A DNA stretch of 64,000 bases, from assembly GCA_010093515.1 (NCBI GenBank), contig MU001709.1, positions 7,812 to 71,811 on the forward strand, in the 5' to 3' direction. Under the pieces are notes generated by a model. The model saw only the letters and a list, made by a program, of their open reading frames with translations, did not search any database and was not told the DNA's origin. Source of the DNA: Lineolata rhizophorae. Lineage: Eukaryota; Ascomycota; Dothideomycetes; Lineolatales; Lineolataceae. This document shows, in pieces, positions 1,514 to 53,227 of this stretch (its first letter is position 1; each line of letters begins with the position of its first letter). The position numbers were made by a program, and so were the translations under genes.

Positions 1514-4354
1514 TCACCGATCCAAAATCGTCATCTCCCTCGTTCCCACCCTCCTCACCCTATCTACACCCAGATGTTCACGCCCATCCCTCCCCAAAAA
1601 CACTCCAAAACCATACCGCACATCCCCTGGCTCAACCAACGAGTCCCGCGCCGGCAATGGCCTCCTCAACGCCTCCGCCTCTTCCGCCTTCCTCGCCGGC
1701 CTCTTCTCCTCGTTCATCTTGACGACGTTGCGCTGCGACGACGACGCCATGCCAAGCGCGACCATGGAGCGGCCCCAGGGCCCGCCGACGGGCGCGCCCA
1801 CCAGCCGCGTCACCAGCTCCGCCTTCGTGTGTGGCTCACGGAACGCGCGGTCCGACAGGAGGCGGCTCTGGTAGAGCCAGGAGACTGCGTGGGCGGGCGC
1901 CGTCAGCGCGTGCGGGAGCGCGAGGCGCGCGCCGCGCGACGGCAGCGACGGGACTAGCAGCGCGACTACGGCGAGGGCGTACAGCGCGAGGAAGGCGCAG
2001 AGAGCGATGAAGCCGGGCAGCTGGGCGGCGACGCGGATCGTGTTGCTGGGAGGGTAGTATTGGGTCCAGAAGACGCCGCCGGCGAGGGTTGGGAGCACGG
2101 AGGCTAGTAGCGAAGCGAAGCTGAAGAGGGCGACGCGGTAGTGTCTGTTGAGGAAAGCGGAGATGGTGATGGAGAAGGGGAGGCGGAAGGGATAATCGAG
2201 GAGCAGGGACATCTCAGCGGTGGCACCACGTGGCGAGGAGAGCTCGGCGAAGGGAGTAAGGCGGCGAAAGGCAAAGTCGACGGTCTGAATGAGCAGGTAC
2301 AAGAGGAGGCCGATAGTGGCGGGGACGAAGGAATAGAGGAAGTTGGAAGCGGAAAACCCGGCTGAGAGTTTACGAATTAGCTCTGGTGTCCAAGAGATGA
2401 AACAGGGGAAAAAAGATAATGCGCACCGCGATCAGAGGTGGGCTTACCGGCATTCGTAGCCACGGGCACATCCGGCAGGAAGCCGCGCCCGACTGCACGA
2501 TTCACAAAGCTGACGACGAGGAATGCGATCAGGAGCACGAAAACGATAGTGATCCAAGCCACAACAAACGTGTCCTTGAGATACCAAGGAAGATATCCAC
2601 GTCGGACTTCAGGTGAATAGAGATCCGGTCTTTCGTCGTCATAAGGATGGCTTTCGAGATCCATGAAGCTCATCTCCGGCGCTTTCTCTCTGATCTTGCC
2701 TTGCTCGATCGAATACATTCTTGTAGCGCCACCGGGCTCTCCAATTCCGTAAAAGATATCGCGTGGACGCTTCGACGTGTGCCAATACCCGAGTCGATCC
2801 GTTCGGTGCGCTAGCCTGTAATGGAATTCCGACTTTGAGGTAAAGGCTTCCGAACCAGCGTAGTCGTTCATGATATTGGATCGCTCCAGCATGCAAATGA
2901 GGTCTGCAAGCGACCGAGGATCCCACTTCAAGCCTGTATCTCTCCTCCATATAACCAAGCAAAGAAGAACAAGAGCAAAGATTAGAAATACATAAAGGAC
3001 TACAACAGTCCAAATGACTCCTTGAACGGCGACCCATCTCCAAAGATTTGGAGACGTATTCGTGAAATAGCGGACATTATATGAGGAAGCAAGAAGAGGG
3101 ATGGTAAATGGGAATAGCCAGAATATTACAAAGCAGGCGCCGAGTATTGGTTGGCCTGCCCTGAAGTATTGAAACTTTGGTACAAGAAATTCAGAAGGGT
3201 ACATGTCTAGAAGGATTCCGGGAGTCCGAGCCGTATTGCTGTGATCCGCCATGCTCATGAATGGCACAATTCGCATGACGGCGATCTGAATTTGAAACAA
3301 CCAAACGAGTATGATTGTGTCAATTAGAGTCGGTAAATATTGGAAGACAAAATACCGACTACCTCCGAAACCGTCGTAGTCCCACAGTCCGTTGCGTCGA
3401 AGCGACCAAACGGCCGAGACAATAAGGAGGACAAGCACCGCAAGGCATAGAAACATGTAGAGTCCAAGCATGTGCGGGCGGAGAATGGAAGGGAGGAAGT
3501 TGAGTGTCGGGTGTTGTAGTGACTTGACTTGAGGGTCAATGGGAACAAACATGTCTCGACCTACTAATAAAAAGAAGCTTAATGTTAGCGATTCCTATTC
3601 CATGCCGGCAGCACCGACAAACCTACCTGGAGACTCGGATTTCCGAGGCGGCTCCTCGCTCCGTGGAGGAGCCTGAGCAGCCGGAGGCGCGACATCTATG
3701 TACCCCATCGCTGGGTCCGCTATTATCCTATCCACCGGGTAATCGTCTTCGTCGTCGAGGCCATGGTATAGACGCGTCCCTCGAATTTCCTCATCGCGAG
3801 TGAGCTGGTCGATCGCAAAGCGAATGTATGGCGTCTCGTCAACCCCTGGGGTAGTCGCAGGCGACATCCCAGGATCCATCTGTCCAGCGTGTTCCTCCGG
3901 AATAGGCGACGCGGCAGGGGCCTGCTGCAGGTACGGTGGTGAAGGTTGCTTTTTCAGACTCTTCTCGCTGCTGGTCCCCGCCGCTGGTTCAGGAGCGGAA
4001 GGGCCCGCGGCCGCGTCCCTCGAGGGCCGCCTTTGTGGTCTCAATGATTGTGCAAGACTGCTTTGTGACTGCTGTAAAAGCTCATGGCTTTGCTGCGGCG
4101 ATCTGAATCTCGAAGGCGGCGTGGCGTAGTGGCCCGGTCGCTGGGATCTCTCATCGCTTTCACTGGACCGCGACTCAGAGAGCGAATAGTAGTCTTCGGA
4201 CGCAGTGATGCTGTGCTGCGATTCGGCGTGCGCGAGCTGGGGGCGATTTACTACGAACGCCGGGGTTAGCAAGAGTCGAGTTGAAGTGCGCGCAACCAAA
4301 ACAAGATGACATACCGGTTGTGTTCCTGAGAGAGAACGACTCATTCGAGTTCAT
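1514..4354 (-). CDS. DUF3433-domain multi-pass membrane protein
   Basis: Four exons read on the minus strand: 4354-4315, 4250-3627, 3560-2448 and 2361-1514, giving about 874 residues. All junctions keep frame and have good GT/AG signals. The first 13 codons lie in their own mini-exon. The N-terminal ~200 residues are polar, Ser/Pro/Gln-rich and cytosolic in character, and end in a conserved stretch around TPYIRFAIDQLTRDEE. Two DUF3433-like membrane units follow. One starts after LWDYDGFGGSRYFVF (exon 3); the second begins at the exon 3/4 junction (FSASNFLYSFVPATIG). Between them is a loop containing LKWDPRSLADLI, a signature of the family. The C-terminus ends in a conserved-looking YGFGVFLGRDGREHLGVDRV. 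The biochemical function of the family is unknown. The family assignment is by remembered motif and is strong; the exon 1 start is inferred. Confidence 0.86.
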
Positions 4355-8677: not shown

Positions 8678-11600
8678 TCATCGATACTCCATCTCCACAT
8701 CTTCAAAAGAGAGTTCACCCACTTGATCAGCATCCCCCACGTGCTCCCCTACTCCCTCCACCCCACCGTCCTCCATCTCCTCGTCCTCCTCATCACTCGA
8801 ATGACTGAATCCAGACAACAATCCTGCACCACTGACCCCTCCTCCGTATGCGCCTCCACTTGCGCCCGCCCCAGCCCCTCCACCCAACTCCATGCTATCG
8901 AGCCCGATGGAGCCGTTGCCAGAGCTGACGCCGCCACCGCCGCCGCCGAAGCCGCCTCCGCCCGCCACTGCGTTGAGCACGGCTTGCCGCGGGCCGACGC
9001 CCAGGTCGGGCCGCACGCCGCCCAGGATAGCGTTGTCGCGCTCGCGCGTCTCCGCCAGCGTCGTCTCCACGTACGTGACCCACTCGGCCGATGTGACCTT
9101 TTGGACGACCGAGGGTGCGAGCGGCTGCGGCATCAACAGCTGATGAGACGGTGACGACCCCGTGGCTGCGGCGGCAGCCATGCTAGCATCGTGGGCGGCC
9201 GCAGAGGCGGCGGCGGAAGTCTCACCGGCCGCTGCGGTGGCCTGCGCGTGCTGTGCGGCAGCTTGAGCCTGGGCTTGGCGCTCGGTGAATTTGACGACCT
9301 CCTCGGCGATGAGCGTTAGGTGGCCCATGTAGCCGAGGCGCATGTGAGTCTCGTCCTGTGCGCGGTCAGAGGCGCGCTGGCCCTCGACGATGCGGTCCGT
9401 GATGGCGCCTGTTTCGAAGAGATCAATAGCAAGGCCACGGTTGAAGCCGCGATCCATCTGGCCGTTGAAGACCTGCTGCACCACATCGTAGACGACGTTG
9501 TGAAGGAAGTTGTTCCAGGGAAAGCGGAAGAAGAAGTCCTGTAGAATACTATTAGAAGAGAGGAAACTTCGATGGGCATATTGGATACTTTCGACTCACT
9601 AGGATGGTCGGCACGACCCTGTTTTCCACGAACATAATCTTCAACATATCACCCACCACCGGCGTCCCATCAATGTCCACCTCGTAGTAAACTCCATACG
9701 GCCCCTCCCTCGTTGCCTCCACCGTGCCCATTTCCTGTCCCTCCTCTTCGCCCACGGCCTTTTTCGTTTCCTCCGCCTTCCTGTCATCCCTCTCGCCCTT
9801 AACCACACCTCCCTTCTTTGCAAACAGTGGCGGGGGCTTATCCTCGGGATGGGGCGACATGCCCGACGGTTCCTCGAATTCCTGCCGACGTTCCTTCTTG
9901 ACCTTAGGCTCCTTTGCGGTCAACTGTTGCGACAGCAGGGACTTTCCTCCGGCAGATTCCTGCTTATCATCTTCCGCCATAACGGTATCGCTGTCTAGCT
10001 CAATCCCGCCCACCCTCTCGGTGACCCCTGCTGCAGTCGGGCTTTCCGCATCCTTCTTCCCCTTCTTTCCCCTGGTGTCCTCTTCCTCACTACTCCCTTC
10101 ATCCTCATCCCTTGCAAACACTTCCCTCCCCTCGACCCTCTCGAACCCTTCCTCCTCGGCTGAGCCCGCCAACTTTTTCCGAACCTCGTCCGCTTCCTCC
10201 TCACTGGTCGCCGACGGGAACCTGGCATGCGTGAACCCTTGAGAATCCACGCTCTTGCTGAACTCCTCCCTGCTCTCAGCACTTCCGGAGCTTGCTCTTC
10301 TCCTGCGGCCACCGACGCCCTCATCCTCGCTATCCTCGACATCCTCGCTCAACACGTCTTCGTCGGCGCCGCCCTCGCCTCGGCCCTGCGCCAGCACGCC
10401 GAGCTTGCCCTCGCGCTTCAGGCGCTCGCGCTCGGCATCGCGCCGCGCCACGTCGGCCTCGGCGCCGCGCTCGTTCAGCAGCGCCATATTGGAGCAGTGC
10501 AGCAGCTCCGCCATGAGCTCGCACGTCTTGAAGCGGTCGAAGCCGAGTGGCTCGATCTTGCCGCCAAACGCCGCCTTGAGCTCGCGCCTGCCCGTCGAGA
10601 TCGTGCCGTCGGAATGCGTTATGGGCGCCACTTTGTCACCCCGTAGGATTAGGTCCATGAAATCGGGCACATTCTCGGCGAACTGGCGTAGGAGCGTGCC
10701 GAGATAGATCGGGTCCGAGGTCTTGGGCACGGGGCCCGCTTGGTTCTCTTGGTCGTAATCGGAGTTGTTTTTGCGGATGACTTCGATGACGATACCGACG
10801 CCGACAGTAAGCGGATTACCGCCGCCAAGCATGTCCGATATAAGGCGGCGAACGCAGGGCGCGGACACGAGTTGGCGGGTTAGCTCGTTGGGTCCAATGA
10901 CCGACTGGTCAGCTGTGGTTGCGTTGGCGCTGATAGTAATGATGGCTTTGAGGAAGTCCCCAGCGGAGGTTTGGACGGAAGGGGGGTGTTGCGGAGAAAG
11001 ATAGGAGAGGAGAATGGGGATGAGGCTTTGGGATTGTAACCACTGCAGCGCAAACCGTTAGCAAATGCATCCATCGTTAGGTAGTTCGTGCGTTGGGGCT
11101 TGTCTGCCCACAACGGTGACAGAAAACAGAGAGAACTTACGTCAACGATTCCCTGCCCACCTTCTGCTTTCTCCAAACTCACAATCTTCAGCAGCAAATC
11201 CATTACCATGGGACAATCCACATGCTGCAGCATATCCTCCACCACGCCATCCAGGCTTTTGAAGAATTCCAACATCTCCTCCGTCTTCCTATCGAGGAGT
11301 GCCTCATTGACCTTTGTAAAATACCCAGCCTGCACGGGATCCAGCTGCGGAGGTTGTTTCAAATACTTCCAGAACTCGCGCAGCGTATCGCGGCTCTCGA
11401 GCAACGCCTCCGAAATAGACCAGACCTCGGAAGCCAGTATCTCACAGGCCACGTACGCGTACTTCAGTCGCTGTTTGTCCTCTTTGGATTCGTCACTGTC
11501 TGCAGCGGCGCCCCCCGAGGTAGCGCGGCCTTTATTAGACGACGTGGATTTCGAGCGACCGCGGCTCTTGCTGAACAGGACTTCAATCCCTCTCTTTTCG

Positions 11601-25312: not shown

Positions 25313-27717
25313 CTACCGCTCCTTCTTCATCACCATCCCTGCCTTCCTCCTCCTCACCTCATTGACGCAAACCGGCGGCCTCTCCCTCCGCTCGGGTGGC
25401 ACCTGCCCCCTATCGACCTTCAACTCGTGCTCCAGCGCCGCCGACAGCCTATCCAGCAACCACTCCGCCTCGGACTTCCTGCTCATCAGCGGGGACCTAT
25501 GACCCAACCAGCTCCAACTCCACCTCGTCCGCCGGCCATCCACCTCGCCATCTCCCTTGCCCAACTCGTGCGGGCGCGCGCGGGGCCCACCGCGGCTGCG
25601 GCTCCGCAGTCGGGCCCCGAAGCGCGGCCGCGACGGGCCCCGCACGGCCGGCTCCCGGTGGTACCGCGGATCGTTCTCGTCCTGGCCCAGCAGCCGCAGG
25701 TAGAAGGCCCAGTCGTCGTACGAGTACTCCTTGGGCGGCGAGGCGTCCTTGTCCGTCAGCAGCTTGCGGATCTCGCGCGCGAGGAGGTAGTGGTAGAAGC
25801 GGCGGTCCTGGCGTAGCTCGTCGTCGTCGCCCTCGCCGCGGCCGCCGCTATTCGGCCTGGCCGCCCCCGATGACGAGGACGCGCCGCCCTTGTCGTTGTT
25901 GGCGGTGAAACTTGCGAAGCGCAGCTCTTCGTCGTCGAGGGCGGCGGCGAGCCGGTCCATGGTCGGGTCGTCGTCCGCGGGCGGGGATTTGTCCTCGTCG
26001 TACTCGGGCCCGGTCTCGTTGTCGTCGCTGCGCTCCTTTTCGGGGTCGTTTTGCTGGGCCCTGACGCGGCCGCGGTTGCCGTCGCGCGGGACGAAGCCCG
26101 GCGGCTGCTGGACGTCGACATGCTGGGTGCGCAGGAAGGGGGAGAAGGAGCGGCCGACGCGGACGGCGGTGTGGGCTAGCGTAGCGCGGAAGCCGCCTTC
26201 CTCGGGCAATAGCGTGAGGGAGCCGAGCCAGATGGTGAAATCGGAGAAGGCCTTGACGACAGTGTCGCCCATGTTGGAGATGAGTATGGTGAGCGTGGGC
26301 ACGGCGAGCATGGTCCAGAAAACGAAGGCGGGCTTGCCCGCGTTGGAGATGAGCGTCAGCTCGCCGTAGCCGATGGTTAGCAGCGAAACGTAGGCGTAGT
26401 ACAGTGCCACGAAGTAGGACCAGCCCTGCCGATGCTCTGAGTACATGAAGACGAGGGCGCCGAGGAACCAGAGCGCGAAGGCGGCCATCGTCGACATAGC
26501 CAGCGCCGTCCAGCGCCGCCGCGAGCTCGCCTCCGCCAATATCACGCGCATCACCTTGAACTCCTGCTCGCGTTTCTGCCGCTCCGTCAACCCGTTCCGC
26601 TCGTACTCCAGCCGCCGGAACAGCCCGACGCGGATTTTCTGGCGGTTCGCGTTGATGTTGGCAAGCACCGCCTCACGCGTCTGCTCTGTCATGCGCGCCT
26701 CCATCTTGAATTTGCCGCGTTCGAGGATCAGCGACCGGATCGACCCGATGACTAAACCGACCATGACGATGCCTCCGATGGCGTACGGAAATAGCAAGCT
26801 CCGCCCCGTGTGCGTCATGGGCGCGAAGTCACCGATGCCGACCGTCAGCAGTGTGAAGTCCGCCCAGTACACCGCGTCCAGATACTGCCAGCCTTCGACG
26901 ACGCTGAACACGAGCGCGCCGAGCAGCAGGTACGCCATGAAAGAGATGGTCTGGAGCATCAGCGTGCGCTGGGCATTCGTCAGTCGGAACCCCTTCTGGT
27001 AGTGACCACGCATGGCTCCGACAATGGTCACCATCATCAAGCTGGCAATGATGAAGTAGAGCCCCGCCGCGATAATACCGTAGTAGTACGCTTGCGTTAG
27101 AGCATGCTCGGAGCGAGGGTCCAACCGGAATATGGGCGTAGAGGCAACGGAAACGAGCGCGATGAGGAGTATCGCGGAGATGTACCATCCGATGACAGTG
27201 ATGGGCTGAGCCACGGCGAAGGAGACACGCCTAGCCATGTTAAGAAGTAGGGCGATGTTGGCGACGAGAGAGCAGACCAATTGCACGGCATTGATGGCGA
27301 TGACCCTAGAAATATTCCAGCAAATTGCAACGCTACTAGAATTGAATTAATGACTGTCTTACCATGACGGATCTTTAACGTTGATTCCATTGTGCTCGTC
27401 CCGCCCCGGCGGGATGTGGACTCTCCAGTTCTGCACCAACGCACAAATACTGAAGGCGTTGGCCATGGGCCCGAACGTGCCGGCGATGAGCGGGCATGCC
27501 GTCGACGCAAACCACCAGCGGCTACAACAAAGAAACAGTAAGCGGCGAAAACTAAAACAACAGATTGAACTGTTGCGAAATAGAAATCAAGGTCCGACCT
27601 CGGGTCAAAATAAGCCTGCTCCTCCTTCTCGTCCTTCTTCCAAGGCTTCTCGTACACGTTACCCTCAATGTCGTCCACCGCGTTGCTCACAGGCTCGTCG
27701 AGATGGGGGTCGTTCAT
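25313..27717 (-). CDS. tok1: TOK-type outward-rectifier potassium channel
   Basis: Three minus-strand exons: 27717-27599, 27521-27363 and 27305-25313, in phase, 756 residues. The plan is that of fungal TOK channels. Exons 1-3 start the first four membrane segments (FASTACPLIAGTFGPMANAF; VIAINAVQLVCSLVANIALL; ITVIGWYISAILLIALVSVA). The first pore loop has TVGIGD at about 247-252 and the second has TIGYGE at about 403-408, each between two membrane segments. Yeast TOK1 is the only known eight-segment, two-pore K+ channel type; it passes outward K+ current across the plasma membrane above the K+ equilibrium potential. The ~330-residue cytosolic C-terminus is acidic and basic by turns, with no recognised domain. 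The start ATG follows a stop and gives a typical acidic N-terminus (MNDPHLDEPVSNAVDDIEG). Two alternative non-ATG extensions were not used. Confidence 0.94.
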
Positions 27718-40445: not shown

Positions 40446-42494
40446 TCATATAATCTTTAGAGAAGCGATCAGTCCATTACTTTTCCATTTTGACTTTTCA
40501 ATCTCCCCATATCCAATCCTCAAAAACATATTCAATTCCTCAGGGACTTGTTTCAAAACTAAGCAGTGATAGAAAGGCTTTCCGTTCTCTGTGTAGAATG
40601 GGTCGGACTCAGACACAGCTGCAGCAATAAAGGGTTCGTGAACCTGGCTTTCCTCATCGAATGCAGCCCACCCGATTCGTTCCAAGACACCGACGTCCCT
40701 TCCCCGGCCTAATAGTGCGAAACAGTTTCCATGCTTTCCAGGATCCAGTTCGTAAACGTCACCGTGGAACAACCTACTATCCTCACCAGAACCACGGATA
40801 ACGTGGTCTTCCCGTTCCACCGCCAAAACGTACCCACGGAACTCCACCCAGCTCCCGACCAATAACTCGTCTCCTGGGCCCAGCTCGAAGAACATGTCTG
40901 GGATATCTAGTTCACAGCAGGGAGTGGCATGCAACGTCGATGCCTCCCACCGGAGCGCCCCATCAAGCGCAGCCCACGACCACGACGGCGCGCGCTTCCG
41001 CCGCGGCCTGCGCAGGGGCCCATCCGCTCCGCACCAGAGCACATGCAAATGCACACTCTCACGCCAGACGCCCGCACAGTACCTCTTGCCCGTCCTCGCG
41101 GCCATGTCCCTTGCGAGCCCCTCGACCGCAAACAGCTTGTCGCGCTCCTTTGTCAAGCCGCGCCGCGAGTAGTCGGCCACGAGGCTGCACCAGGACCAGG
41201 CGTCGCCCTGCGGGAGGCCAGCGCCGTACCGCTTTGGCTGGTAGATGCCGAAGTCGCGGCCGTCTTCGGCGCGGGCGTGGCGCCGGCACTCGAAGAAGGT
41301 CTGCCCGGCGCCGAAGTAGAGAATGCGGCGCGAGAGGTTGCACTCTTGGAGGACCCAGCCGCGCGAGGCCCACGTCGCGCTGTGGATGCAGGTGAAGGCG
41401 TCGCAGCGCGAAGGCGTCACGAAAAAGCTATTGAGAGCGTCTTGCTGGACGGGATGACTGTCCTGTTGAACGGTGGTTTCGTGTGCGTATGGGAAGGGGA
41501 TGATGGGCCGCGACACGTCTTTACGCTCGATGAAGAGCCCACCGCTGGATGACTCGGATCCAGCCGCTGCGAGAGTGAGGAAGGAGTCCCTGTATATATT
41601 GCCCATTTCGATGGCTTCCTTCTCCCATTCGGCGGGATCATCCTGGACAATACATAGAGCATCGATCCAAAGAAAGCGGAAGCCTAGTCTCCGCGTGGTG
41701 AGAACAGCGTGCTGCAAGGTGAGCGGCATCTCCTCGACCAGGATGGCGCGTTTATGGGCCGCTAAGTTCTGTCGCAAGGTCACAAGTGGTTGGTTTTCTC
41801 CCCAGCAGTAACTTAGCGTGAGATATTCCTGTTGCGCATCATCACCGTCCACCAACGCGCATGAATCCGGATGCTCGGAAGAGACATTTTTGACGTCGAG
41901 TAACCGAGATGGGAACTGGCGATGTTTTTGCTGAGTTAGATTTGTGGTCGGGGCGCACTCAGGGTGGCCAGTACGACATTCCACTATCCAGGACTGCAAA
42001 AGGTCGAAAGACTCTTCCGAACCAGCATCGGAAGCCAACTGACGACCACAGACATCGCCGGAAAGAGCGGCTCTAGACCCTACCAACGCTGTCAGTATAG
42101 TTTGACTAGTATTATTGGAACTTGCTTCTTGAATTGACAAAAACGATTACTGACTAGGCATTGCATATACGCAGAAATAGGCTCTCATAGTCGACTGCTT
42201 GACCAAAGCAATGATAACTGCCAGCCGATGGCCCCTCCTCTGGCTATCCGGTGTTGGCACTCCTGTGAGAAGGATGCGATGGGCTTCGTAGCCTTTCCCC
42301 CTTTTAAATTTCCCACGAAGTTCTTGCAGAAGCAGAGCACACATAGGACACCGTTCGGCGGATTCTGGCAAGTCTTTGTAGTCACGATGCAAATAGCCGT
42401 AGACGTCGGTCTGGGTCCCAGCGCGGTTCTGTACCGGGCGCTCTGCAAGAAGCGTACTGGGAGATATATTGCTGCAGAAGCTACAAAGACTCAT
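40446..42494 (-). CDS. Heterokaryon incompatibility (HET) domain protein
   Basis: Two minus-strand exons. Exon 1 runs 42494-42155. Exon 2 begins at 42079 (or, with the alternative acceptor, 42088) and ends at 40446. The product has about 657-660 residues. The N-terminus MSLCSFCSNISPSTLL and a later CPMC are typical of HET proteins. The HET domain starts near LTLSYCWG (about 202-207) and includes LWIDALCIVQDDPAEW (about 250-265), IYRDSFLTLAAAGSESS and RGWVLQECNLSRRILYFGAGQ. All key motifs are intact, so the gene looks functional. HET domains trigger cell death on contact between incompatible strains and may signal downstream of NLR-type receptors. The last ~200 residues have no known domain. 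It is divergent from the 44-kb orphan gene, 1.6 kb apart. A longer non-ATG upstream frame was not used. Confidence 0.92.
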
Positions 42495-46419: not shown

Positions 46420-49400
46420 CTACCCCGTAGCCTCCCTCCCCTCGCTCCCGGGCCGCGGGCCCTTCTCCCCCTCCGCTTCACCCACCGTCCTCTTCTCCTC
46501 GCCCGGCGCCCCTCCCGGCTCCCTTCCCACCGTCTCGGGCTCGCCCCCCATAACATCCGGATGAGGCGGGGCCTCGCCCTCGCGGACCCTGCCATCCCGC
46601 TCCCCCTGAGCCGCACCACCGGCCTCGCCGGCCTCGCCGGCCTCACGCACCTCCTCGCGCACCACGTTGCCCTCCCCGTCCAGCAGCCGCGTGCGCGTCT
46701 CGTACCGCGTCCGGAACGACACCTTGCCCTGCAGCGCCGCCACCGCCGCCTCGTCCAGCACGTTGCCCGCCTCGTCGCGGAACTCGACGCGCTCGTCGCG
46801 CGACAGGAGCTGCGAGGCCGCGGCGGCCTCCGGAGGCGCCTGCGGCGTCACTTCTTCTTGCTTCTGCTGAGGCGGTTGCTGGGCAGCGAGGGGCTGCTGC
46901 TGCTGCTGCTGCTGCTGTGCCTGGCGGTTTCCGCCGGCAGGCTGCTGGACGGCCGGCGCGGGGGACGACGCGGGCGTGGCCGACGCGACGGGCGGGCTCG
47001 CGACCGAGCTATACTGGTCGTACTGCAACGCGCGACGCCCAAGCGAAATTAGCACAACCAAGCTCGAACGAAATGGAAACGACCATCCGCTTATGCCGGA
47101 TCACTCACGCTCTTGTAAAACGCGTTGCAATCCCAGTCCCACTTCCCGAGCAGCTTGGCCCTCCTGCACTCCTTCTGCGTCCACGGGTTCCCGTACGCCA
47201 GCGGCGCGTAGGCCCAAAATGCCACCACGCTCAGCACCAGAAAGCCGCCGAGGATGGCCCAGCCGAGCGCGGGCCGGCTTCTGAGGCCCAGCGCCGCGAT
47301 GCGCGCCGTCGCGTAGTCGAGCGTGACGCAGAGGCCCAGGACCGCGAAGTAGAGGGCGGGAAAGTAGTGGTGGAGGAAGAGCTGGCGCTGCATGAGGAAG
47401 AAAGGGAAGTAGTGGAGGGCCCAGCCGAGCGCGAGGGCGCCGACGTCGTAGTCGAAGCGCTTGAAGACGACGCTGCGCTCGTAGTCGGCGTAGCCGCGCT
47501 GCCAGCGCAGCACTGCCACCGCCTTGAAGAGCGCGTACAGCACCACCGCCGCCGTCGACGCCCACCACACCACCGGGTTGCCAATCAGGTAGATCTGGCG
47601 GTGGTCCTTGCCCCAGAAGTTGATGCCGCGCTTAAGCACCGGCCACGATGGCGGCCGCGAGTCCCACGCGTGGCTCTCCACCAGGCCCGCGTTCGTCCGC
47701 CACATCACCTTCTGCAGCTCCCAGAACTTGGCCAGGAAGCCGGGACGGCGGTAGTTGACTTTCTCAGCCGTGTCCGGCAGGTGCGGATGCGCGTTGGTCT
47801 CGATGAACCAGACCGAGTTGGGCAGCGTGCCGCCGCGCGCGCACGTCACCTCCTGCTGCTCGTAGCCCCAGTCTGGCAGCTTGACCTTGTGCGAGAAGAG
47901 CGCGCACCCCGTCATCAGGTGCACTAGCCGGAACTTGGTTTGAATCGTGCGTACGCGCTTCTTAGCCTCGTCCCCATCCGACAGGTGCTTGACGATCTCC
48001 ACGCGGAACAGGTCGTTGGCATCGCCCTCGAAGCCCTCGTAGCCGTAGGCCGACACCTCGTTTTGCCAATCGGCCTCGGTGATGGGCGGACGCACGTCGT
48101 GCGAGTGGAGGCGGCGGTGCGTCGTCGCGTGGTAGAGACGAATGATGGCGCCGTCCTCGATCATGGTCGGGTCGAGCTCGTCCCACGCCTTGGGACCTTC
48201 GATCTTGCTCCCGTCTGGAAGCTCCGGCTGCGTCTGGTTCTCCAGCAGCCAGACGTTGTTGTCGTCCTTGTGCGGGTACAGCGTGATCTGCTGCTGTTTG
48301 GAGCCGCCGGGGTACATGTGGGGATGCGAATGGAGGTATCCGCCCTGTGTGTTGTGGTGGCGCAGGGAGACGCGCGAGCCAAAGGCCACATCGGCGGGGA
48401 CGTCCTGCATGCCCTTGCTGTTGAGCGTGGCTTGGAACTCCGACGACATGAAACCGTCACCCTCGCCCGGGTTGACTAGACACACAAAGTGGATCGCGAA
48501 CATGGCCATGTAGAATGTCAACGGAATGACGATGAGGCAGAAGAGCCTCGCGAAGAAGTGCTTGAACCAGAGGCGCGGGGTCACGGTTTTGGCGTCGCCC
48601 AGGAGAACCCAGAGTTGCAGCACGGTGAGAGCGCCGACCCACGCGATGGTAAAGAGCCCGACCCATTTGACGCTGACGGTCGCGCCGAGACACAGCCCCG
48701 TCGCCGCGAGCCAGAACCACCACGCGGGCTGGAACGCCTTGCTAGGGCCTTGCTCGTGCTGGTTCATAAAGTTCGTCCAGGCGAGCGCCGTCATGGCCGT
48801 GAAGACGACGAGCGGCGAGTCTAGGAGGATGAGACGGGCCTGGGTAAGGAGGCCATTCTCTGCGAAAGTACCATGTTAGCACCCAATCCCAATAGGCAAC
48901 GCCCTACCCGGCAAATTTCCGTACCAAAAATGATGAGCGCCGCGCCGAGCGCCGCCGTCGCGCTCTTGCACCCGATCGCCTTGAGTGTGAGGAACGCGGT
49001 GGGCACGAGCAAGATGCCGCAGATGGCGGGCAGCAGGCGCATGGCCACGTAAGGCACGCCGGGCTCGAGGTAGTCCTTGCCAATTTCCTTGAAGTCGAAG
49101 TTGCCATTGAAGCCGGCGAGCCAGCCGGCGAGCGTGATGAGCAGCTTGGCGAGCGGCGGGTGCACGTCCATGAAGAACTTGCCCTTGATGTATTTGGAGG
49201 CGAAGCCGCCGAAGCTGTTGTGGGCCACCAATTGTTAGCAGTTGCATTCGAGAAGGCCAGAGGGGCTCATTGCATCGGGTCAGCCAAGAAGACTGGCGTT
49301 GAACGAATGGTGCGGAAAACGTACTGGACTTCGTCGAAGACGACGCTGCTCGGCTGGGATATCCGGAACAGCCTTACGGCGGCACCGACGAACGTCAGCG

Positions 49401-49554: not shown

Positions 49555-51268
49555 CGCGGCGGCAGTAGAGCGGACCGAAGACAAAGAATTGGGCTGAGTT
49601 GCTTTAGGGTGGGTTCGACTAGATGCTGTTGTAGAGATGGCTAGGAGGCGCAATGCGCATGTCCCTTGCGGGAGAAGCAGTGCGAGAAGGCGAGGCTGGA
49701 CGGAGTGAAGGGGGTGAAGGCCGAGTAGAGCAAGGCGTCTGGGCGTGGAGGGAGCTGCCCGCGTCAGCTCTCGGGAGGGCAAAAGAAGCAAGGGTAGAGA
49801 AGGTGAAAGAAATGAAAGAAGGAGAGAAAGAGGCCGTGACTAAAGAGTGTAGAGAAGTGGCGGGCGACCGTTTTGGTCGAGTCTGGCGATGAGAGCGACG
49901 GGCGCGGATGGACGGCGGCAGAGGGCGACGATGGGGAGGGGGTTGGACAGATGGCAGGATGGCGAGGAGGTTTGGTTTGGCGGCGCCGTGTTTCTCGATG
50001 TGGCCCGTTCGCGCAGCTGGGTCCGGTGGCCTGTTCGGTTCCAGGGGTCCGCGCGCCGGCAGCCTCCCCTGGTTCGCCTCGCCCAACCGGGAGTGCCCGC
50101 CCGTGTCTCGCTGCGCTTTGGCAAGGCTAGAGACGCTCCCTCGCGGGCCTGGTGCTTTCTCTCGTGACGTTGAATGAAGAAGGATAAAAAGCCCAAAAAA
50201 AAGAAAGAAAGAAGAAAAACAATAATTGCCGACGCGGGCAGCGGCTGCAGATGCAATGCTGTGCGGGGCGCAGGATGGCAGCTTTGCAAAACGTGTTCTT
50301 TGCGGCGTGAATACCTGCCCTAGGTAAAGGTGAACGTAGTACTATCCCGGAGAATGCGGGAGGACTCCATAGAAGTGGAAGCTGTGAACGCATGCAGCGC
50401 TTGGTCCAAAGGCTACGGACGCTTGGTCGAATCGCAGTTCTATTTCCGCTCCTTCTGCTCGACCCGCCGGCGATGGTGTAATGGCGCAGCGGCGGCAGGC
50501 CCTGGCGCAGAGCGTGCAGCGCGCCCGAAATAGATTCGGGGAGTTTTGCGCGGCCGGGGAGGAGACGACGGGGCTAGGGACACAGCAGCACCTCCCGTCA
50601 GCCGCAGCGAGCTCGGCGCCAAGCCGGGCGGCTCCGTCCCTCGTCGTCTTGGCGGCCCCCGGGCGGAGCGGAGCGGGCGAGGGGCGCCTCACCGCCCACG
50701 TGGTCGCGCAACGAGGCCCAAGCGCGTCGACTGAATCCGGCAACCACCTTCGACCTCGCGCGCCTGCCTGCTCAACTCGCGCGCCAAAAGTCAATTCAAG
50801 GTCTTTGCCACCCGCGCCCCGCCTTCTTCCCTCCTTCTTCCTCCTCCACCCGCCTCCTCTCTCACCCTCTCCGCTCTGCACGCGTGCTTCACAAGCACAA
50901 CTTCTCTCGTGCAGAATTCTCACCACACCTCCATCCCGTCTCTTGCGGCCCTTTCGGCCCTTTTTCTGCTTCCTTACCATCCGCAGTTTGAAGCTTCGAG
51001 CTCTTCTCTCTTTTCGACGAGCCTTTCGGCCTGCACGCGCGCCCTCCGCCCCGCGGACTCAACTTCTGCTCGCCGGACGCGTCTTGTCGCGCGCAATACC
51101 CAAGCTCCGCTCGCCATTAAAGCTGTCGCACCCAAGACTCCCTCCGGGTTTCGCCTGCGCCGCGTTTCAACGCACGCAGCTCTCCTGCTCTCTTTCTCGT
51201 AAGCTTTGCATCGCGATCCCCTCCCCTTCGTTTGTTTTGTGCGAAAGGACGCAGTTACGACCGCAGCC
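49555..51268. other. Shared divergent promoter region, PMT1 / SF3A1
   Basis: 1.7 kb of GC-rich sequence with no supported gene; long overlapping frames here lack protein character. The SF3A1 side (50.8-51.2 kb) is strongly C/T-rich, a common leader type. A sequence resembling a tRNA A box near 50473 has no B box. Confidence 0.6.
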
Positions 51269-53227
51269 ATGAAAGCCGATAGTCCCGCGACCCCGGTGTC
51301 TTCCGGATACCACGTCATGTACACCCTCGACTCCGTCCCCAAGCCGCCTGAGGGCGTTCCTATCCCACCGCGCGAGATCCGCAAGTACATTGAGCGCACC
51401 GCGGGCTACGTCGTGCGCAATGGCAAAGTCTTCGAGGACCGCGTGCGCGACCAGAACGCCAAAAACGCAAAGTTCTCCTTCCTTCGTGCCAACGACGAGT
51501 ACCACGCCTACTACTCCTGGCGTGTCGAAGAGATTCGTGCCGGCCGCGGCACCGACGTGAGCGCCGGCCACGACCGCGGCAGCGGCGGCGGCGTCGTCGG
51601 CCAATATGCGATGACCAATGCCGAGGAGGAGTCGAAGGGCCCGCCCGCTCCTCCCGAGTTCGAGTTCAGCGCGCGCATGCCTCCGATCCACCCGCTGGAC
51701 CAGCAGGTCATTCTCATCACTGCACGTCACGCGGCCAAGCACGGGCGCAGCTTCATCACCCAGCTGTCGCAGAGGGAGGCCAACAACCCGCAGTTCGACT
51801 TCTTGCGCCCCAACCATAGCCTGTACCAGTACTACACGCGCATGGTTGACCAGTACGCGTCCATCATCAACGGCGCCACCGCTGACGACGGCAAGGTGCA
51901 GCGCGAGCGCATCGCTAGGCTGCAGGAAGATTCCAAGAACTGGCTCGGCGTCGTCGACCGCGCCAAGCAGCGCGCCGAGTACAACAAGCACGTGCAGTCG
52001 CAGCGCGAGGAAGAAGAGAAGAAGCGCGAGGAGGAACGCATCGCCTACGCTCAGATCGATTGGCACGACTTCGACGTGCTTGACACGGTCACGTTCGGCG
52101 CTGTGGACCAGACCATGGACATGCCCCCGCCTCCCACGCTTCAGGAGCTGCAGTCGCTGTCCCTCGAAGAAAAGTGGAAGCGCGCCGCCGACCCGGGCGT
52201 GCAGCGCATCGAGGAGGCCATGCCAGATGTGGAGATGATGGACGCGCCGACCTACGGCTACGAACAGCAGCCCATCACCCCGGCCACGGCGACGCCGACG
52301 CCCCAGCCGACAGCTCCACCTTCCGCCACGCCGCAGCCCGTTGCAACGCACCACAAGAGTGCCGCGGAGGAGGAAGAAGAGCAGCGCATCCGCGAGCGTG
52401 CCGAGGCTCGTGAGCGTGCCGCCCAGGCTCAGGCCGCCGCCAAGGGCGCTGGTCCGATGCGCATTAAGAGCGACTACGTCCCGCGTGCGCAGGCCAAGCG
52501 CCAGGCGGCCAACACCGCCATGTGCCCCAACTGCAAGATGCAGATCCCTTACGACGAGTTGGAGGCACACATGAAGAGCAAGTGCCCCCCTCCCCCTCCC
52601 ACCCCTCCCGCCTTCACTTCCCTGCCCTCACGTCTTCGAGACGGGAGTGGCTTTTCCCCTTCTCTCTCCCCTCTCCCCCCTCTCCTCACCCTCTCCCTCC
52701 CCTTCCGCCCAAACGCTCAGGCAGAGAGCGCGATGCTGATGGGAGCGCCGCCTACTACCCCTACAGTCGAGCTCATCGACCCCCGCTGGAAGGAGCAGCG
52801 CGAGAAGGCCGACGCCCGCCACGCCACCACCAACCTCTCGACCTCGGACGTGGCCAACAACCTCAAGCGCCTCGCGTCGCAGCGCACAGACGTCTTCGAC
52901 CCCGTCACGGGGCAGACGCTGTCGGAGGACGAGCAGGCCCGCCGCAAGCGCCTCGCGTCGGCCGCAGCCGCGGCCCTCGGCGCCGCCGCCAACGAGCAGC
53001 AGCAACAGCAGCAGCAACAGCAGCTGCAGCAGGGGCAGCAAGGTGCGCCTGCGGGTGCGGCGGGGTTTGCGGCTGCGGTGCCGCCGCCGCCGGGTGTGCC
53101 GGGCATGCCGGGCCCGCCCGGCGTGGGCCAGCAGGCGCAGGGCCAGCAGGGCGGTGCGGGGGCTGGTGGACAGGGTCTGTCGGTGGAGGAGCAGATCCGA
53201 CAGATCCACCAGAAGTTCAAGCAGTGA
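51269..53227 (+). CDS. Splicing factor 3A subunit 1 (Prp21/SAP114 orthologue)
   Basis: U2 snRNP component of the SF3a complex, acting in prespliceosome assembly in the nucleus. Read through, the frame from ATG 51269 has 652 codons. With the GC-AG intron 52578-52766 removed (see findings), the product is 589 residues. SURP module 1 covers about residues 35-86 (IRKYIERTAGYVVRNGKVFE) and SURP module 2 about 143-195 (LDQQVILITARHAAKHGRSF). The PRP21-like region follows (IDWHDFDVLDTVTFG, MPPPPTLQELQSLSLEEKW). Then comes a CPNC...H segment (CPNCKMQIPYDELEAHMK) joined to IELIDPRWKEQ, as in the human EHMR-IGLLDPRW region. A Gln/Ala/Gly-rich linker separates this from the C-terminus LSVEEQIRQIHQKFKQ. 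There is no ubiquitin-like domain, as usual in fungi. Start chosen at the first ATG; upstream frame uses non-ATG codons only. Confidence 0.94.
   Translation: MKADSPATPVSSGYHVMYTLDSVPKPPEGVPIPPREIRKYIERTAGYVVRNGKVFEDRVRDQNAKNAKFSFLRANDEYHAYYSWRVEEIRAGRGTDVSAGHDRGSGGGVVGQYAMTNAEEESKGPPAPPEFEFSARMPPIHPLDQQVILITARHAAKHGRSFITQLSQREANNPQFDFLRPNHSLYQYYTRMVDQYASIINGATADDGKVQRERIARLQEDSKNWLGVVDRAKQRAEYNKHVQSQREEEEKKREEERIAYAQIDWHDFDVLDTVTFGAVDQTMDMPPPPTLQELQSLSLEEKWKRAADPGVQRIEEAMPDVEMMDAPTYGYEQQPITPATATPTPQPTAPPSATPQPVATHHKSAAEEEEEQRIRERAEARERAAQAQAAAKGAGPMRIKSDYVPRAQAKRQAANTAMCPNCKMQIPYDELEAHMKSKCPPPPPTPPAFTSLPSRLRDGSGFSPSLSPLPPLLTLSLPFRPNAQAESAMLMGAPPTTPTVELIDPRWKEQREKADARHATTNLSTSDVANNLKRLASQRTDVFDPVTGQTLSEDEQARRKRLASAAAAALGAAANEQQQQQQQQQLQQGQQGAPAGAAGFAAAVPPPPGVPGMPGPPGVGQQAQGQQGGAGAGGQGLSVEEQIRQIHQKFKQ
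52578..52766 (+). other. Probable in-frame GC-AG intron of SF3A1
   Basis: Donor A|GCAAGT at 52578, branch candidate CTGAT at 52736-52740, acceptor CTACAG ending at 52766. Length 189 nt, divisible by three, with no stop in the reading frame. Removal joins EAHMK to IELIDPRWKEQ, the conserved SF3A1 order. Retained, it inserts 63 Pro/Ser/Leu-rich residues into the conserved motif. The nearest GT donor (52582) paired with the acceptor at 52720 would shift the frame. Confidence 0.75.

Follow-up and report, generated by a model that had tools for sequence, protein, structure and literature searches.

The interval 52578-52766 (+) of the window, by which we mean the whole stretch of 64,000 nucleotides of Lineolata rhizophorae DNA analysed here, is very probably a U2-type GC-AG spliceosomal intron in the gene for the U2 snRNP protein SF3A1 (Prp21). 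Judging from the genomic sequence, we put at about 0.86 the probability that it is an ordinary intron of this type, spliced from the majority of SF3A1 transcripts, if not all, in this fungus, and we infer both the occurrence and the efficiency of its splicing. As an intron the interval exceeds what chance would give, whereas as a stop-free multiple of three it does not. It adds one more case to a kind of intron already known, and regulation is not needed to explain the sequence.

The coding span of the gene, from ATG to stop, occupies positions 51269-53227 (+) of the window, which lies within contig 40 of a genome of 31.0 Mb and 48 contigs from one strain. The product of 51269-53227 contains two SURP modules and a PRP21_like_P domain according to Pfam, has a Gln/Pro-rich tail, and finds its best solved relative in human SF3A1 (E 2.9e-59), in agreement with the gene assignment made in an earlier note on this DNA. 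The coding part of exon 1 (51269-52577, +) ends in phase 1 at ...CATGAAGA, and the coding part of exon 2 (52767-53227, +) carries the IELIDPRWKEQ block and runs to the stop codon.

Directly after ...CATGAAGA the intron begins with the 5' splice site GCAAGT (52578-52583, +), which is the top-scoring frame-compatible donor. It ends with CCCTACAG at the 3' splice site CAG (52764-52766, +), identified from the letters and by the splice model, and exon 2 follows with TCGAGCTC. These boundaries are letter for letter the A|GCAAGT donor and the CTACAG end that the earlier note had given. GC donors usually take the form GCAAGT. The branch-site candidate CTGAT (52736-52740, +), also based on the letters and the splice model, has the CTRAY form found in most of the homology-anchored introns described below. 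Its A at 52739 is located 26 nt from the A of the acceptor AG, as had been noted, and 27 nt from its G, the last base of the intron. A single AG is present between branch and acceptor (52744-52745, in GGGAG, 5-6 nt past the branch A). Judged by motifs taken from general knowledge, a U12-type donor is absent (2 of 9 letters) and no U12 branch is found near the acceptor, the best branch-like match (7/9) being about 141 nt away from it. The intron as a whole consists of 50% C and 71% C+T, and the pyrimidine-rich stretch between donor and branch (approximately 52584-52720, +) of 81% C+T. This tract is placed like 83% of the polypyrimidine tracts in Fusarium core-gene introns, which are reported to lie between donor and branch (PMC5677156).

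The donor matches GTAAGT in five of six positions (+1 to +6), and 22 of the 45 homology-anchored GT introns match fewer. When compared with CAG|GTAAGT over nine bases, the donor gives 5/9 matches, with 16 of the 45 GT introns matching five or fewer. Its weakness is confined to the second base and the exon side, and the description of the intron as weak in the earlier note needs this qualification.

Several lines of evidence place the exon join at these sites. In a six-frame search of the genome, PRP21_like_P was found in two pieces flanking the interval (profile positions 8-174 and 173-213), and its score rose from 144 bits in two stretches in the retained protein to 170.2 bits in one stretch in the spliced protein. 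For 46-residue fragments around the junction, the same domain scored 21.1 bits retained and 54.8 bits spliced. The spliced product ...AHMK-IELIDPRWKEQ... is aligned without a gap across the join to human SF3A1 (...EHMR-IGLLDPRWLEQ...), and the restoration of HMK-IELIDPRWKEQ in the human order, which had been claimed before, is borne out by both the alignment and the domain score. Neither human SF3A1 nor the Pfam model contains the 63-residue stretch, and a search with the complete retained protein, run up to an E value of 1, gave no Pfam match to it.

Frame-compatible GT-AG and GC-AG pairs no more than 54 nt from the break were scored with a scheme of our own. The proposed GC-AG pair was the top model (10.6) and matched the expected residue count exactly; the second-best model (3.6) kept the GC donor and used the AG at 52744-52745 as acceptor. 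The best GT-AG model at the break reached only 2.2, compared with 10.6 for GC-AG, and no GT donor competes with GCAAGT. Coding scores, for which the SF3A1 gene was excluded from the training set, were 0.5, 4.0 and 5.7 in the three 189-nt scoring segments mostly inside the interval and 11.4-30.4 in the remaining 26 segments of the gene. The interval itself scored -1.15 in the retained frame, and 5.7% of 1168 segments of other long open frames scored as low or lower, which is the low end of coding sequence but still inside its range. Since domain join, human alignment, splice models and coding scores agree, we read the interval as an intron. U1 would then recognise GCAAGT, tolerating the one mismatch at +2, CTGAT would pair with U2, and cleavage at CTACAG would join HMK to IELIDPRWKEQ.

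For comparison with other introns of the genome we used 59 hand-picked gaps in conserved families (11 UQ_con, 19 Ras, 9 proteasome and 20 kinase; other gaps, mainly kinase, were omitted). Nine that were open in frame, and thus ambiguous with protein insertions, were removed to leave 50, and five more were dropped for scores under 9, GT being the best donor in all five. The 45 confident introns were all GT-AG, with GC-AG in 0/45. Ten mitochondrial-carrier regions were also fetched and nine of them scored (L094 was left unscored); they added three confident introns, all GT, bringing GT-AG to 48/48, and among the remaining six scored regions GC was the best donor in two (scores 4.2 and 0.3). The scheme favours GT over GC by 3 points, but removing this bonus changed none of the 45 introns, the smallest GT lead being 3.4. 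GC-AG introns are rare in this genome, consistent with the fungal mean of 1.009% of annotated introns (PMC7072748).

In other respects the SF3A1 intron is ordinary for the genome as regards length, CTRAY branch and YAG acceptor. The anchored introns are 55-254 nt long (n=45) and four exceed its 189 nt; 37 of them have CTRAY as their top branch candidate, and 42 have a YAG acceptor. Their branch distance has a median of 18 (range 10-55, one intron without motif), compared with 27 here. The SF3A1 intron is among the most C-rich, with a higher C content in 1/45 and a higher C+T content in 3/45.

Ab initio counting of introns was also tried as a measure of GC-AG frequency, over 264 kb made up of the window and 20 regions of 10 kb each, and was rejected. 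At thresholds of 8 and 3, relaxed donors yielded 37 calls for GT and 49 for GC, the SF3A1 intron being listed with GCAAGT, while the decoy dinucleotides yielded 20 (GA), 32 (GG), 25 (CT) and 30 (TC). Given this decoy background, the comparison relies on the homology-anchored introns alone. When the donor was restricted to the strict hexamer NNAAGT and the thresholds were kept, two GT calls, one GC call and none for any of the four decoys were obtained.

The interval was confirmed to be 189 nt long, a multiple of three, and free of stops, with the gene frame open throughout. Such an open frame is not exceptional. In dinucleotide shuffles of the intron the frame stayed open in 26%, which with one third for the length gives about 9%; among annotated introns, 13.3% of fungal GC-AG and 9.2% of fungal GT-AG introns are reported to be both multiples of three and stop-free (PMC7072748). 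A C at the second donor base is given for 1% of Fusarium core-gene introns (PMC5677156). From these base rates and the shuffles it follows that the combination of GC-AG ends and open frame needs no function, and the open frame would result from chance and a C-rich, stop-poor composition. Nine of the 45 anchored introns are free of stops when read in their own frame, and 14 have a length divisible by three; that no intron combines the two is partly by construction, because such introns land among the nine open gaps that were removed. One of these gaps, L031 (UQ_con), resembles a stop-free GT-AG intron of 111 nt with a score of 12.2, so that stop-free introns of a multiple of three are seemingly not special to SF3A1 in this genome. 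L031 is located on the minus strand of G000:C12 between matches 891168-891353 and 891462-891698, and its 111 nt are likewise a multiple of three. Another open gap, L066, gave a borderline GT model (9.0), and four others, with GC as the best donor and scores of -0.9 to 5.6, were taken for insertions.

GC-AG introns of euascomycetes, and their misreading in automated gene annotation, have been reported (Rep et al. 2006, as quoted in PMC8703528). The SF3A1 intron shares with them the GC donor, the AG acceptor, the location in a conserved gene and the restoration of the protein upon removal, and differs in being open in frame as well. SF3A1 of Drosophila (CG16941) also contains an intron with GC-AG ends, which has been assigned to the U12 type (PMC2831892). 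Gene and GC-AG ends are the same in the two cases, but the fungal intron is without U12 motifs. In a literature search, a GC-AG intron of fungal SF3A1 was named in no title or abstract opening among the matches listed.

The interval is a stop-free stretch inside a coding exon, as are exitrons (Marquez et al. 2015, PMC4484396), with which it also shares a length divisible by three and a somewhat weak donor. As neither human SF3A1 nor the Pfam model has the stretch, it looks more like an intron than like ancestral coding sequence that became spliceable. Its significance is mainly for annotation, as GC donor and open frame together risk a wrong model of a conserved U2 snRNP protein. A gene finder without GC donors could give a protein of 652 aa, with 63 foreign residues in a U2 snRNP protein and no warning.

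Autoregulation through an intron usually acts via a stop codon that the retained intron brings in, followed by transcript decay. The earlier note had taken the weak, non-canonical and translatable intron in a core splicing factor as a candidate for splicing autoregulation or for two protein isoforms. Retention brings no premature stop here, the frame staying open to the normal stop codon, and hence there is no basis for autoregulation by a poison intron; base rates suffice for the combination that had suggested it. We consider it unlikely that the intron is regulated, the GC donor making splicing sensitive to the supply of spliceosomes and retention giving a second SF3A1 of 652 aa whose PRP21-like block carries a Pro-rich insert. 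The poor exon side of the donor (5/9 matches) and the open frame would fit such a role, the splice sites of exitrons are described as weaker than those of other introns (PMC4484396), and a regulatory role has been proposed for GC-AG introns of human genes (PMC7242645). However, the insert splits a conserved domain, the RNA fold of the intron is no stabler than that of shuffles (z = 0.36), and stress-induced retention in the fungus Blastocladiella was judged random rather than regulatory by its authors (PMC2773782). If retention were regulated, the SF3A1 gene would offer a simple test of whether a subunit of the spliceosome can use a sub-optimal donor to sense its own activity, with no need for transcript decay.

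Two protein isoforms may be made, one of 589 aa from the spliced and one of 652 aa from the retained form; the difference is the 63 residues that retention had been said to add, and the intron is in phase 1. In the retained form, A|GCAAGTGC, the donor included, encodes Ser-Lys-Cys in the intron's phase, and this places a Cys four residues past the His of CPNC-x11-H (H-x4-C), beside a PPPPPTPP stretch. It would be most improbable that regulated retention makes a working second SF3A1, with a fourth possible zinc ligand and as part of a variant U2 snRNP that offers a new contact surface and by its amount reports the efficiency of splicing at weak donors. The only hint in this direction is faint, a gain in zinc-domain matches with the insert. 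The best such match was 16.2 bits in the retained fragment (cut-off 27) and 15.7 in the spliced one (cut-off 25.6); IBR_1 went from 14.9 bits spliced to 16.2 retained (cut-off 27), and CEP104_ZnF and zf-TRAF matches appeared with the insert, both below their cut-offs. For CPNC-x11-H, the zinc-like segment of the earlier note, all Pfam zinc matches are thus sub-threshold, and its two cysteines are absent from human SF3A1.

The donor could be GT in nature and the GC a sequencing error or a variant private to the strain, as GCAAGT is one transition from GTAAGT and the confident anchored introns are GT in 45/45. We hold this to be very unlikely, given that GCAAGT is the usual form of a GC donor. 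About 1% of fungal introns are, moreover, reported to be GC-AG (PMC7072748).

That the interval is instead a lineage-specific insertion, rich in Pro, Leu and Ser and translated at all times, is extremely improbable: such an insertion would accord with the open frame, with a coding score (-1.15) that is low yet within the coding range and with the in-frame insertions of this kind seen among the open gaps of other families, but both limits of the insertion, as judged against the family, coincide exactly with splice signals, the scores inside the interval fall below those elsewhere in the gene, and the insert has no Pfam match.

With the protein of exon 1 as query, the viral collection gave no pattern match and the prokaryote collection 32, among which there was no SF3A1 relative (0/32). 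Rfam at gathering scores and a tRNA scan gave no matches in the whole window. Neighbours of the SF3A1 gene encode, all on the minus strand, a protein O-mannosyltransferase (47091-48794), an ion channel with two Ion_trans_2 stretches (25313-27286) and a SAPS phosphatase-associated protein (9552-10868). The window also holds genes for a HET-domain protein (40446-42140, minus strand, 2e-30) and a DUF3433 protein (2377-3552, minus strand), two families whose presence is suggestive of filamentous ascomycetes. Upstream of the SF3A1 start codon, at 50800-51200, a C/T-rich stretch was observed in which GC skew goes down to -0.525 and which has the same flavour as the pyrimidine tract of the intron.
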